Shown piece by piece: positions 15 to 61,824 of a stretch of 64,000 nt of DNA (position 1 is the stretch's first letter; the number at the start of each line of letters is the position of its first letter). A program made the translations under genes and the position numbers. Source of the stretch: Ignatzschineria sp. RMDPL8A (GTDB lineage: Bacteria > Pseudomonadota > Gammaproteobacteria > Cardiobacteriales > Wohlfahrtiimonadaceae); NCBI RefSeq assembly GCF_029815055.1, contig NZ_JAPPWA010000001.1, forward strand, positions 1-64,000, written 5' to 3'. Below the pieces are notes generated by a model. That model was not told the origin of the DNA. It saw only the letters and a program-made list of their open reading frames with translations, and ran no database searches.

Positions 15-42
15 ATTCTAGCAACTTTTTTAGATCTGTCAA
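15..42 (-). promoter_or_regulatory. Sigma-70 promoter, downstream of a tandem pair
   Basis: Read on the minus strand, this is TTGACA, 16 bases, TAGAAT. It points out of the window to the left. It lies about 240 bases downstream of a second promoter with the same spacing and a similar -10 context (GC before the hexamer). The near-consensus hexamers and tandem layout are typical of rRNA operon promoters, but no RNA gene is inside the window to confirm it. Confidence 0.55.
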
Positions 43-158
43 CTCTATTTTAAAAGTTTTTGTGCTCGAAAATCGATCAACTCAAAACCCGTAAAACAAA
101 CCGTTTAATCAACACCTCAAATTAACTAAGGGGATAAAAACGAAACTGACAAACCCAA

Positions 159-170
159 TTGTTAAAGTGC
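159..170 (-). promoter_or_regulatory. boxA-like antitermination element
   Basis: The minus strand reads GCACTTTAACAA, close to the boxA sequence of gammaproteobacterial rRNA leaders (TGCTCTTTAACAA), which recruits NusB/NusE and the SuhB-containing antitermination complex. It lies about 90 bases downstream of the upstream promoter and about 117 bases upstream of the second. The match is by eye only. Confidence 0.4.
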
Positions 171-17898: not shown

Positions 17899-18756
17899 TT
17901 ACGGTGTGGGGCGAGTGATCGGACGGGTCACGCCCCAGATTCCAACGAGGGGTTTGGCTTTCCAAAAAGGCGCGCCGTAGGTTTTTCCGCGATAATAGAG
18001 TCTTGCCAAGGTGCCATCTAAATAGAGCGCGTCTTGGCAACCGATTTCATCTTTAAAATAGGTAGCAAACTCAAAAAAATTGACGCTATCTTCCGTCACC
18101 ACAAAATGGACCTTTTGATCCATCACGCAGACGCCACTGCGGATTTTAAGGCTACGGGAATGCTCAATAAAACGGTGATTATAATCGCCATTAATAAGGA
18201 GCATCGGCCCCGATTGCGTTGCATATTGAATCGGTTTATCTTGGCTAAATTCGGCAAACTTATCGGTGGTTTCAATGTAGGCGCGATTGTGATCGTCCAC
18301 ATAAAAAACCCCATTGGGAAGAAGCGCAAAATTGCCCTGCCCTTCATTAAAGGTCACCGTATTGAGCGGGACTTTGGTAATGCCCTTTTCAATAAAGAGC
18401 CCAAGCGGGGTGTAATGCTCTGCATAAATGCCGCTGTTTACCGCAAAGAGCAATTCCTCATGCTGATCGGCACTTAAATGCCGTGCAAGCGATGGAATTG
18501 AGGCGAAATCTTGCTCGGTCTGTTCGTTTTTCCAATAGAGTTTTAACGGCTCTTTAGTTAAATCAACGATCCCTTCCACATAGCGATGCCCTTCATAACG
18601 CGCGGTTTTAAGCTCAAGTGCACAGACATAAGAGAGCGTACTGCTTGCAATAATTCCGAGCGCACAGCTAAAAAGCATCTTGCGTTTTAGTCCACGTAAG
18701 ATGCTTTTTATCGATTGTGTTTGACTGAATCTGCTCGCAATTGCGCTCAATTTCAT
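17899..18756 (-). CDS. Phosphodiester glycosidase (NAGPA/DUF2233) family protein
   Basis: This is an exported protein of 285 residues. A long basic N-terminus leads to a hydrophobic segment (about 27-47) ending at VCA/LEL, so it is secreted or membrane-anchored. The remaining chain fits the NAGPA-like domain: NSGIY, PLGLFIEKG, the GNFALLPNGVFYV block, ATQSGPMLL, and the DALYLDGT segment near the end. In animals this fold uncovers mannose-6-phosphate by removing GlcNAc; bacterial members are thought to cut sugar-phosphodiester bonds in glycans, but substrates are unknown. It starts 10 bases after suhB, with GAGGGCAGG before the ATG, so both are one transcript. It meets cpxA end to end. Confidence 0.75.
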   Translation of the reverse strand: MKLSAIASRFSQTQSIKSILRGLKRKMLFSCALGIIASSTLSYVCALELKTARYEGHRYVEGIVDLTKEPLKLYWKNEQTEQDFASIPSLARHLSADQHEELLFAVNSGIYAEHYTPLGLFIEKGITKVPLNTVTFNEGQGNFALLPNGVFYVDDHNRAYIETTDKFAEFSQDKPIQYATQSGPMLLINGDYNHRFIEHSRSLKIRSGVCVMDQKVHFVVTEDSVNFFEFATYFKDEIGCQDALYLDGTLARLYYRGKTYGAPFWKAKPLVGIWGVTRPITRPTP

Positions 18757-18766
18757 CCTGCCCTCA

Positions 18767-19531
18767 TTATTTGAGCGCGACTAACATCTCTTTTAAAAGA
18801 CGCGGTGCAACCACCACAATTTCGCCACTCATTAAATTCTCTTCACTGCCGCGGAAATCGGTCACTAATAGACCGGCTTCACGGGCAATTAATACCGCAC
18901 CTGCGATATCTTCTTCCGCAAGGTGAGCGCCTGAATAAAAGCCCGACGCTAAACCGCGCGCAGTCTGAATAATATCGCCTGCCACATCACCATAGCACAT
19001 GATCGATTTCGCGTTTCGTTGAAGCTTTGCAAATTGCTCATGATCAACAACAGTGCGGCCAATCTTAGTGAGAAGGTGTGCATTTTCTAGCTTACCATCA
19101 TTTTTGGGAGCGCGTAATTTTTGATCGTTAAAGAGCGCACCTTCAGTGCGGGACGCTACCGACATCTCATCGAGCACGGGATTATAAACCACCGCGCTTT
19201 GAAGTTTTCCACCCATCTCATAGGCAATCGAGACCGAGAAATTTGGTCGGCCAGCACGGAAGTTTTCTTCTGCGGTCATGCCACTAATGTACCAGCGATG
19301 ATAGGCATCATTTTCACGAGTATCGTGATATTTCGCTTGAATGGTGTGGCTTGGATACGCGCTACGAATGCCAGCAATCAGCTCTGATTCGATCTGCTCG
19401 TAACAACGTAAAAAGAGCTCATCATCGGCTCTTTGCTCGGGGTTTAACGCCTCAAGACGGAAATAGATAGTACGGATTGTACGGCTTGCATCGCGTGCAA
19501 CTTGTTGTGCTACTGTGGTATGTGAATTCAT
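18767..19531 (-). CDS. suhB: SuhB-like inositol monophosphatase-fold protein, catalytic site lost
   Basis: The 254 residues align along their length with E. coli SuhB: the SYPQHTI segment becomes AYPSHTI (58-64), and the RLPHFAVSIA and VVYDP blocks are kept as RPNFSVSIA and VVYNP. The metal-binding residues are replaced, however. The canonical W-V-I-D-P-L-D-G-T is WYISGMTAE (80-88), so both aspartates are Ser83 and Thr86, and the Glu of the EE motif is Lys67. Only Asp208 of the third motif remains. It is therefore predicted to lack phosphatase activity. E. coli SuhB has a second job in the rRNA antitermination complex that does not need catalysis; that role probably persists here. An intact paralogue lies at 61048-61824. 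Confidence 0.85.
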   Translation of the reverse strand: MNSHTTVAQQVARDASRTIRTIYFRLEALNPEQRADDELFLRCYEQIESELIAGIRSAYPSHTIQAKYHDTRENDAYHRWYISGMTAEENFRAGRPNFSVSIAYEMGGKLQSAVVYNPVLDEMSVASRTEGALFNDQKLRAPKNDGKLENAHLLTKIGRTVVDHEQFAKLQRNAKSIMCYGDVAGDIIQTARGLASGFYSGAHLAEEDIAGAVLIAREAGLLVTDFRGSEENLMSGEIVVVAPRLLKEMLVALK

Positions 19532-19593: not shown

Positions 19594-20325
19594 TTAATCC
19601 TGTTCAATCTTGGAAATTAGGGATTCAAATAGGCTCGACGCGCCAAATCTAAAATGATCCGGCGTCCCCCACTCGCTTCCCATAGTGGCAATCACAAGCT
19701 CAAGATAGATAAGCGCTTGCGAAAAGGTGCTAATGCCCCCTGAAATCTTAATGCCCGTGCGCGCTTCCGCTTCTGCGCTTCGAATCGCGGCGAGCATTGT
19801 TCCAACCGACTCCACCGACGCTCCTTTTGAGATGCGGCCGGTCGAGGTTTTAATAAAATCAGCGCCAATACGAATCGCCATCTCTGATGCTCGTTTGACA
19901 TAGCCTTGGGACTTTAATGCGCCCGTTTCTAAAATTACTTTTAGGGTTTTATCGCCCGCTGCCTCTCGTACGCCCCGCAAAAAATCTTCACAAAGACGGG
20001 CTTGATGATTTAAAAAAGCAAAATATGGGAAGACCACATCGATCTCATCGGCACCATCATCAATCGCTTTTTTTACCTCACTACAGGTGCGATAGAGATT
20101 GAGATCCCCACTTGGGAAATTAGCCACGGTCACAATTTTTACCTTGCTACCAATCCGCGCATTAAGCTCTTTGACATATTGCGGCAACACGCAGACCCCG
20201 GCGACCGTTCCATAGGGCGAAATCGCTTTTTCACATAGGGCATCAATATTAAGGGCCGGCGAAAAATCGGTGAGATCTAAAATCCCAATCATCTTCTCCG
20301 CCACTTTTATTTCAAATTCTTTCAT
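19594..20325 (-). CDS. deoC: Deoxyribose-phosphate aldolase
   Basis: DeoC splits 2-deoxyribose-5-phosphate into acetaldehyde and glyceraldehyde-3-phosphate during deoxynucleoside breakdown. The 243-residue TIM barrel keeps the Schiff-base Lys159 (in DFIKTSTG), the proton-relay Asp95 (in DEIDVVFPY) and Lys193 (in GIKISGG). It starts 3 bases after the MFS gene, and its GAGGG site lies in the end of that gene, so they are translationally linked. The other deo genes (deoA, deoB, deoD) are not here. Confidence 0.95.
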   Translation of the reverse strand: MKEFEIKVAEKMIGILDLTDFSPALNIDALCEKAISPYGTVAGVCVLPQYVKELNARIGSKVKIVTVANFPSGDLNLYRTCSEVKKAIDDGADEIDVVFPYFAFLNHQARLCEDFLRGVREAAGDKTLKVILETGALKSQGYVKRASEMAIRIGADFIKTSTGRISKGASVESVGTMLAAIRSAEAEARTGIKISGGISTFSQALIYLELVIATMGSEWGTPDHFRFGASSLFESLISKIEQD

Positions 20326-20328
20326 CGA

Positions 20329-21603
20329 TTATCCCTCATTTGATTCGCGATTATCAGTGGCGGCTGTTGCCTCTGACGGATCATCTTTTTTTGGTTTACG
20401 GACCGGATTTTTCATCGGATAGGCGACATAGAGCCACGCCAGCACCAATAAAATCGCCGCAAAAAAGACCACGAGCGGACTTTCAAAACTGCCGCGAAGT
20501 TGCATTCCAAGCTGACCGCCCACCGCAATGCCGATAAATTGGCTTGAGGAGAAAATCCCCATCACCATGCCGCGATTATCTGCCGGCGCAAAGCGCGACA
20601 TAAGCGAGGGTTGCATCGCTTCTAAGGTATTAAACCCTAAGAAAAAGAGCATCATCACCACTAATAATCCGCCATAGCTGATCTTGAAAAAGGTGAGCAT
20701 GAGCGCTAGACCAAGTAACCCGATCGCCATTAAAAAGACTTTACGGTGATGGTAAAAACGTTCTGCAAATCCCACGATCGGGAAGAGCAAAATAATCGAA
20801 ATTAAAAATCCAGGCACATAGACGCGCCACGAAACAGCATTATCAAAGCCGTGATTGATGAGATAAAACGGAAATGCGGTGAATGCGAGGGTTAAAATCA
20901 TATGCACCATCATTCCGCCAAAATAGAGCCGATTGATGTTGCCATCCTTAAAGGCCGCTTTAAAATTCTCAATACCGCCCGCCGCTTCCGCTGCACTGCG
21001 ATCAATTTTAGGCGGCGTCGGTAGCATAAACCACGCCAGTAAAATCCCCAAAACACCTAAAATCGCACAGAGAAGAAAGACCCCTAATCCACCGGAAAAG
21101 CCAAGACTTTCGGTAAAAGCATAGAGCTTTGGCGAGATAAAAAAGGCAACTCCGAAGGTAAGCCCTATCGTAATGCCGATAATCGCCATCACCTTCGAGC
21201 GCACCTCTTCACGGGTCAGATCCGTTGCAAGGGCTAAAATCACCGCCCCAATCGCGCCGGTTCCTTGAATAATTCGCCCTAAAATCGCCACATGAATGTT
21301 GGAAGTAAAGGCAATAATCGCGCTCCCAATCACAAAAAAGAGGAGTCCTGCTACGATGGTCTCTTTGCGGCCAAATTTATCAGAGAGCATTCCGAAAATC
21401 GGTTGAAGAATAATTTGCGTTAGCGCATACCCGCTCATAAATAAGCCTGCAAGAAACGGCGTTACGCCCTCGAGCGAAGCGGCATGTTGTGCAAAGATCG
21501 GAATAATAATAAAAATTCCGAGCATCCGTAACGAAAAAAGACTCGCTAAATTGAGGCTAATCCCACGCTCAGCGCGGGTTAAATGATGCGATTGGGTAGT
21601 CAT
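20329..21603 (-). CDS. MFS transporter, YajR-like
   Basis: This is a 12-helix major facilitator protein of 424 residues. It resembles E. coli YajR in its FSLRMLGIF start, the cytosolic loop motif GMLSDKFGRKETI between helices 2 and 3, and LGRIIQGTGAIGA and LATDLTREEVRSK. It lacks the extra C-terminal YAM domain of YajR and ends in a short charged tail. It is the first gene of a unit with deoC, so it might move a nucleoside-related compound, but the substrate is unknown. Confidence 0.85.
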   Translation of the reverse strand: MTTQSHHLTRAERGISLNLASLFSLRMLGIFIIIPIFAQHAASLEGVTPFLAGLFMSGYALTQIILQPIFGMLSDKFGRKETIVAGLLFFVIGSAIIAFTSNIHVAILGRIIQGTGAIGAVILALATDLTREEVRSKVMAIIGITIGLTFGVAFFISPKLYAFTESLGFSGGLGVFLLCAILGVLGILLAWFMLPTPPKIDRSAAEAAGGIENFKAAFKDGNINRLYFGGMMVHMILTLAFTAFPFYLINHGFDNAVSWRVYVPGFLISIILLFPIVGFAERFYHHRKVFLMAIGLLGLALMLTFFKISYGGLLVVMMLFFLGFNTLEAMQPSLMSRFAPADNRGMVMGIFSSSQFIGIAVGGQLGMQLRGSFESPLVVFFAAILLVLAWLYVAYPMKNPVRKPKKDDPSEATAATDNRESNEG

Positions 21604-61047: not shown

Positions 61048-61824
61048 TTAGCCGTTGATCAGTTTTAAGGTTTTTGCATGAACCTCGGGCGTTGCCGCTA
61101 AAATACTGCTGGTTTCAAGAGAGAGTTTGTCCCCTTCTAAGGTGGTCACGACCCCGCCCGCTTCTTCCACAATGATTGAAAGTGCGGCAATATCGAGAAT
61201 ATTGACATCGGATTCCACAATAAGGTCGAGTGAACCTTGCGCTAATAGATGATAGTGCAGGAAGTCACCAAATCCGCGTGTTGAGTTCACTTGTTTGATG
61301 AGTTCGCCATAATTGTTCCAGCGAGCTGAGTCTTGCGCAAGCGATTTCAAGTTCCCCGATGAGAGTACGACGTTTGAAAATTCGGTAATATCGCTCACCG
61401 ACAGGCGCTCACCATTTTCACGGAATGCTCCTTCGCCTCGCACCGCATAAAATTGCTCACCATTATTAAACGACGGCGCCGTTGAGACTCCTAAGATAAT
61501 CTCCCCTTTATACATGAGCGCAATTTGGCATGAGAAAAACGGACGGCGACGCACAAATGCTTTGGTGCCATCGATCGGGTCAACGAGCCATACATAATCG
61601 GAATCGATGTTCGATTTACCCTCTTCCTCCCCGAAAAATCCGTGGTCTGGAAAGTGCTTAGAGATATGCGCACGAATCGCCTGTTCTACCGCGACGTCCA
61701 CTTCGGTAACGGGCGTCATGTCTGCTTTGATGGTAATCTTAAATGCATTTTTATCATATTCAGTTGCAATAATATTACGGGCAATGGATGCCGCTTCTTT
61801 TGCGCACTCTAAAAATTTTTGCAT
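61048..61824 (-). CDS. Inositol monophosphatase family phosphatase (HisN-like)
   Basis: A 258-residue Mg-dependent phosphatase. The catalytic set is complete: Glu66-Glu67 in GEEEG, Asp82 and Asp85 in DPIDGT, and the third-motif Asp in VNILDIAAL. It fits histidinol-phosphate phosphatase HisN or a related phosphatase; the substrate cannot be decided from sequence. It contrasts with the dead SuhB paralogue at 18767-19531. It is divergent from the PhnD-like gene. Confidence 0.85.
   Translation of the reverse strand: MQKFLECAKEAASIARNIIATEYDKNAFKITIKADMTPVTEVDVAVEQAIRAHISKHFPDHGFFGEEEGKSNIDSDYVWLVDPIDGTKAFVRRRPFFSCQIALMYKGEIILGVSTAPSFNNGEQFYAVRGEGAFRENGERLSVSDITEFSNVVLSSGNLKSLAQDSARWNNYGELIKQVNSTRGFGDFLHYHLLAQGSLDLIVESDVNILDIAALSIIVEEAGGVVTTLEGDKLSLETSSILAATPEVHAKTLKLING

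Follow-up and report, generated by a model that had tools for sequence, protein, structure and literature searches.

The gene at positions 18767-19531 on the minus strand of the window (the whole 64,000-nucleotide stretch of DNA analyzed) is the SuhB orthologue of its family, and its product of 254 residues is, on sequence grounds, a pseudoenzyme form of SuhB, confirmed throughout the lineage, in which the catalytic site has been erased. Purifying selection acts on this eroded suhB gene. SuhB is a sugar-phosphate phosphatase and a helper in ribosomal RNA production; in the family of the window genome, which is kin of fly-larva bacteria, it has probably been retained as a Nus factor acting in the rRNA antitermination/chaperone complex.

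The Putative NusA-Contacting Helix and the Nus Partners

In E. coli, SuhB binds the AR2 repeat of NusA and nut-like RNA, is required for the stable entry of NusB/S10 and suppresses termination (PMC6614801). The KL251/254AA substitution lowers the affinity for NusA AR2 more than 1000-fold, from a Kd of 94 nM to 141 µM, and disruption of the SuhB-AR2 contact weakens antitermination; in the presence of nut-like RNA, E. coli SuhB enters the complex without the AR2 contact (PMC6614801). The growth defect associated with suhB in E. coli is not linked to IMPase activity (PMC4807359; PMC6614801).

Positions 251 and 254 were picked beforehand from this independent mutant experiment (PMC6614801). In the window SuhB they correspond to K247 and L250 of the C-terminal helix segment PRLLKEML (residues 243-250; 18782..18805, minus strand), whose P, K and L are invariant in the family. 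Altogether, 22 of the 247 sites in the family SuhB alignment are invariant. The C-terminal helix contributes P247, K251 and L254 to this set, to which no catalytic position (67, 68, 84, 87, 89 or 212) belongs. K251 and L254 do not vary among the 12 distinct sequences of the family and occur in 17/17 genomes, so that a check for loss of the residues that contact NusA in E. coli found both retained.

Two prespecified sites would both fall within the 22 invariant ones with a probability of about 0.008 (22/247 × 21/246), and for three invariant sites within the eight-residue helix segment P = 0.026 was obtained. Among canonical SuhB sequences, K occupies position 251 in 52% and L occupies position 254 in 77%. 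The helix is therefore, if anything, more tightly constrained in the family, and the AR2 contact is no universal signature of SuhB.

NusA with two C-terminal repeats (AR1-AR2) is encoded in the window genome, and 14 of 16 family relatives also have it; the two-repeat C-terminus was undetected in the other two, the 80%-complete genome G002 and G009. NusB was present in the partner search. In Ignatzschineria genome G014, a boxA of the form GTTCTTTAACAA[AT]T lies between the rRNA promoter and 16S, and the same promoter-boxA order was found at contig ends in Ignatzschineria genome G003.

Taken together, the invariant K251 and L254 and the presence of NusA AR2, NusB and boxA favor a SuhB that would act as a Nus factor only. 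According to this proposal, E67, D84, D87 and their surroundings would have been erased in the ancestor of the family with the fold retained, and the C-terminal helix (K247/L250) would dock on NusA AR2 in the rRNA antitermination/chaperone complex, as its counterpart does in E. coli. By analogy with the E. coli protein, SuhB would also assist NusB/S10 in settling on boxA and may protect or fold the nascent rRNA.

Several observations stand against this reading. Besides the variation at positions 251 and 254 in canonical SuhBs and the entry of E. coli SuhB into the complex without the AR2 contact, the RRxGSAAL signature is replaced by MCYGDVAGD in the window SuhB, with R183/R184 changed to M/C and G186 retained, and the eroded SuhBs L049, L053 and L151 of other families, described below, lack both K251 and L254. 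The initial annotation had proposed that the lineage kept only the antitermination role; the catalytic loss, the orthology and the fitting family-wide state agree with this, and NusA binding, antitermination and a function in rRNA synthesis are what we infer for the family protein.

Gene Neighborhood of suhB

Profile searches and neighborhood comparison placed suhB in the cluster rsmI-MFS-(deoC)-suhB-NAGPA-cpxA, which is conserved across the family. In the window, a gene for a protein with a phosphodiester glycosidase (NAGPA) domain (17899..18756) lies next to suhB, with deoC upstream (19594..20325) and an MFS transporter gene as a further conserved neighbor (20329..21603), all on the minus strand. 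The NAGPA-domain gene may be a functional partner of suhB, or its position may reflect mere operon inertia. Among the Ignatzschineria loci, deoC was undetected in the cluster of L035, L037, L039, L041, L043 and L045-L048; it is still in the cluster in Wohlfahrtiimonas and in the window genome.

This neighborhood bears on the rival that survives best, namely that the dead SuhB persists because of a scaffold or regulatory role other than rRNA antitermination, for example one involving the NAGPA-domain protein or the MFS transporter. In its favor, the NAGPA-domain gene adjoins suhB in every family genome with sufficient flanking sequence, and K251 and L254 are absent from other eroded SuhBs. Such a role is nevertheless considered rather unlikely, given the invariance of both residues within the family alongside NusA AR2, NusB and boxA. 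In addition, suhB is ancestrally essential in Enterobacteriaceae (PMC11481867), where its known role is in rRNA.

The Catalytic Site across the Family

The alignment with E. coli SuhB gave exactly the replacements that had been reported from a first reading of the window: K67 (codon 19331..19333), S83 (19283..19285) and T86 (19274..19276), all on the minus strand, occupy the positions of the metal ligands E67, D84 and D87. The codon following K67 encodes Y68 in place of E68, and further changes relative to E. coli are P85 to G84, T89 to E88 and W211 to E207. The sole metal-ligand side chain left is D208 (18908..18910, minus strand), at the position of D212, which is T in the Ignatzschineria relatives and Q in genus g3. 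The PF00459 metal-binding set E67/D84/D87/D212 of the EE, DPxDGT and WD motifs thus reads K/S/T/D in the window SuhB.

Aligning SuhB from the related genera, as had been suggested, demonstrated that the loss of catalytic residues is common to 17/17 family genomes from four genera (that of the window genome, Ignatzschineria, Wohlfahrtiimonas and one more), and no catalytically intact SuhB was found among them. A loss peculiar to one assembly is thereby ruled out. The replacements vary by genus, with N/K/R/D at position 67, S/G/gap at 84, S/V/T at 87 and D/T/Q at 212, and the SuhB of the Ignatzschineria relatives carries a one-residue deletion within the DPLDGT motif. All four ligands are present in 36/36 canonical SuhB sequences. 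Among the non-SuhB sequences of the IMPase superfamily (HisN, CysQ and others), E67, D84 and D87 are kept by 47/47 and the complete set by 46/47.

With E67, D84, D87 and their surroundings lost, metal-dependent phosphatase chemistry should be impossible, and we infer that SuhB of this family lacks phosphatase activity. It could be argued that the active site was rebuilt, so that catalysis persists through different residues or on a different substrate: the pocket-side replacements F40, Y44, I47 and S201 are nearly fixed in the family, and D212 is retained in the window SuhB and in Wohlfahrtiimonas. This seems very improbable, as the ligand positions show no new invariant acidic set, genera differ in their replacements, and the DPLDGT motif is one residue short in the Ignatzschineria relatives.

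Identity, Fold and Selection

The open reading frame 18767-19531 matched PF00459 with 93.6 bits (gathering cut-off 27). The best PDB sequence matches of its product were structures of E. coli SuhB: 2qfl (E = 7e-26), 6ib7, 6ib8 and 6tqn (rrn complex), and identity to E. coli SuhB is about 30% over the full length. The AlphaFold2 model had a pLDDT of 95.2 and a pTM of 0.92. Foldseek assigned it to IMPases with a probability of 1.00, and its top matches were SuhB of P. aeruginosa and E. coli, including 6tqn and 6ib8, the latter a structure of SuhB with NusA AR2, with a TM of about 0.9.

Among the NCBIfam models, SuhB scored best (109 bits versus 75 for HisN). The score lies below the curated cut-off of the SuhB equivalog NF008027 (332 bits), a threshold that was reached in just 89 of 370 gammaproteobacterial genomes. 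In a maximum-likelihood tree of SuhB, HisN and CysQ computed after removal of the catalytic columns, the SuhB clade, including all eroded sequences, was split from HisN and CysQ with 97/95 support, and the SuhBs of the family were monophyletic (98/98). The earlier claim of a SuhB orthologue along the whole length is accordingly upheld by tree placement, PDB matches and predicted fold.

These results also concern the possibility that SuhB was supplanted by a divergent paralogue, be it HisN, CysQ or another. Such a replacement could be suspected from the long branch and from the position of suhB in the family, which is not beside trmJ. It is, however, scarcely more credible than outright decay of the gene and was ruled out by the tree lacking the catalytic columns. 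The model scores likewise prefer SuhB, no second SuhB occurs in the family genomes, and canonical suhB of the same order was also not seen beside trmJ.

For pairs within Wohlfahrtiimonas and within Ignatzschineria, the dN/dS of suhB was 0.02-0.12, and in the least saturated pairs (dS 0.45-1.02) it was 0.021-0.035. That suhB is a decaying pseudogene, as the low equivalog score might suggest, is the least tenable explanation of all and is contradicted by these ratios, by a frame that is open in 17/17 family genomes and by the confidently predicted fold.

The HisN-Type Paralogue

The window genome (2.18 Mb, 99% complete) contains exactly two PF00459 genes, suhB and the gene at 61048-61824 (minus strand), which was identified by profile, motifs and tree as a HisN-type phosphatase of the IMPase superfamily with intact EE, DPIDGT and D motifs. 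In the tree, its product clusters with HisN-like proteins of the family. Its motif 6 reads DIAALS and, as expected of HisN, is without the Gly found in SuhB at position 219. The best model was TIGR02067, with 229 bits, below the cut-off of 275.

The HisN-type paralogue is found throughout the family, sister families contain relatives of it, and hisD is present in the window genome. These observations, together with the position on the HisN branch, lead us to read its product as most likely a histidinol-phosphate phosphatase older than the loss in SuhB, in preference to a replacement IMPase. A duplicate or spare copy of SuhB was ruled out by the placement in the HisN clade. The initial annotation had regarded this paralogue as a complete phosphatase that would cover the enzyme activity. 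The motifs are indeed intact, but the protein is of the HisN type and is better read as older than the loss.

No CysQ-type (PAP phosphatase) gene was found among the PF00459 matches of the genomes of the family (f1). This leaves the HisN-like protein as its sole intact representative of the superfamily; two HisN-like genes occur in G002.

The Left Edge of the Contig

Near base 1 of the contig, an upstream promoter (TTGACG at 278-283, TATAAT at 256-261) is followed by the boxA-like element CACTTTAACAATT (157..169) and then by a second, rRNA-type promoter (15..42; TTGACA at 37-42, TAGAAT at 15-20), all on the minus strand. The tail of the latter, AGTTCGTCTGCT, agrees with rRNA promoters of Ignatzschineria. 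Past this second promoter the contig stops; the transcript from it would run off at base 1, and the standard leader boxA of the window genome would lie beyond this point.

The boxA-like unit, with its strong promoter, is present in four copies in the window genome, at positions 1-300 of the window (minus strand) and, in the assembly G000, at C1:76171, C2:97 and C2:771534; two of the four lie at contig ends. The copy at C2:771534 runs on into the second promoter, and that at C1:76171 does not. This repeat may serve rRNA operons as a separate upstream leader, or its copies may be decayed operon starts. No rRNA genes, including 16S, were found in the window genome assembly, and the strict boxA-plus-boxC pattern was also not found in that genome. 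Of the boxA-like rRNA leader that had been proposed at the left edge, the boxA-like element and the rRNA promoter region are real; comparison with relatives indicates that the string itself is an element other than the standard boxA of the 16S leader.

Eroded SuhBs in Other Gammaproteobacterial Families

A total of 370 gammaproteobacterial genomes were scanned against the SuhB model, and low-scoring proteins were inspected together with relatives of the window SuhB. High-scoring SuhBs were outside this inspection, and single-residue losses among them are therefore uncounted. Eroded SuhBs were found in at least seven further families: f159 (L165, reading R/E/H/D at the ligand positions, with R/E/H in place of E67/D84/D87, and L173, also eroded), f131 (L156 and L157, with L174 more degenerate), f161 (L150), f27 (L049), f3 (L053, L056 and L059, genera g8 and g13), f158 (L151) and f10 (L050). 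The catalytic loss is therefore not unique to the lineage of the window. Most genera of f3 and the neighboring families f2 and f4 have an intact SuhB.

In f159, f131, f161 and f27, the eroded suhB adjoins trmJ, so that its orthology rests on more than the tree; in f131 and in one f159 genome, iscR lies next to trmJ-suhB, an arrangement shared with E. coli. The AU test spoke against one common origin of the eroded SuhBs, which was rejected at p = 0.00018, and parsimony required at least six changes to the eroded state, the long branches in the tree calling for caution as to the exact number of losses. Confinement of the loss to small AT-rich genomes was also ruled out, since the f159 genomes measure 3.6 and 5.0 Mb and their SuhB loci have 57-61% GC. 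Including the family of the window, the repeated loss extends to at least eight families, with both large GC-rich and small AT-rich genomes.

Both K251 and L254 are kept in f131 (L156, L157) and f161; f159 has only K251, and f27, genus g8 of f3 and f158 lack both. The AR2 contact is therefore no universal correlate of catalytic loss.

Two genera show features of their own. The eroded SuhB of f3 genus g13 (L056:3629-4822, minus strand; L059:3971-5164, plus strand) is extended at its C-terminus by a lysine-rich stretch of about 110 residues, which was not seen in the other SuhBs compared and resembles an RNA- or rRNA-binding tail. In f131 genus g207, an extremely degenerate SuhB (L174:2375-3112, plus strand; profile E = 2e-15) is encoded beside trmJ-iscR and represents a further stage of erosion.

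Discussion

The closest functional reference for the window SuhB is that of E. coli, a Nus factor and inositol-1-monophosphatase (2qfl, 6ib7, 6ib8, 6tqn). The two proteins share the fold (TM about 0.9) and K251/L254, and NusA AR2 and NusB are present in both organisms. They differ in that E67, E68, D84, D87, T89 and W211 are replaced, R183/R184 are changed and the C-terminus is shorter in the window SuhB. SuhB of P. aeruginosa (8wip, 8wdq, 9j90), the best Foldseek match, has the same fold and binds D-myo-inositol-1-phosphate in a crystal, according to the title of 8wdq, whereas the window SuhB is without the metal ligands for this.

HisN, the IMPase-like histidinol-phosphate phosphatase (5yht), belongs to the same superfamily, as does the protein at 61048-61824 with its intact motifs, but it forms a clade separate from SuhB and is not an antitermination factor. 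The eroded SuhBs of other families resemble the window SuhB as SuhB orthologues that have lost at least one metal ligand, several of them encoded beside trmJ or trmJ-iscR. In contrast to it, they have independent origins and other replacements, and only some retain both K251 and L254. Among the open-access papers searched (subscription journals lay outside the scope), no description of a natural catalytically dead SuhB was found.

The question at stake is why SuhB combines rRNA antitermination with a functional phosphatase activity, and whether there is a connection between these roles. Lineages that lack the catalytic residues and still hold suhB under strong selection constitute a natural separation-of-function experiment: their eroded SuhBs point to the residues needed for the rRNA role alone and supply proteins with which it can be tested. 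Annotation by homology would label such proteins inositol monophosphatase, a doubtful label.

More interesting than the case of one family is the recurrence of the loss in independent lineages, which is directly testable. The same loss in several other lineages suggests that the rRNA job is what matters. On balance, it appears plausible that within Gammaproteobacteria SuhB became a catalytically dead Nus factor on several independent occasions, its paralogues HisN and CysQ retaining their sites, and that its phosphatase activity may be an ancestral leftover with which a lineage can dispense as long as the rRNA role persists.
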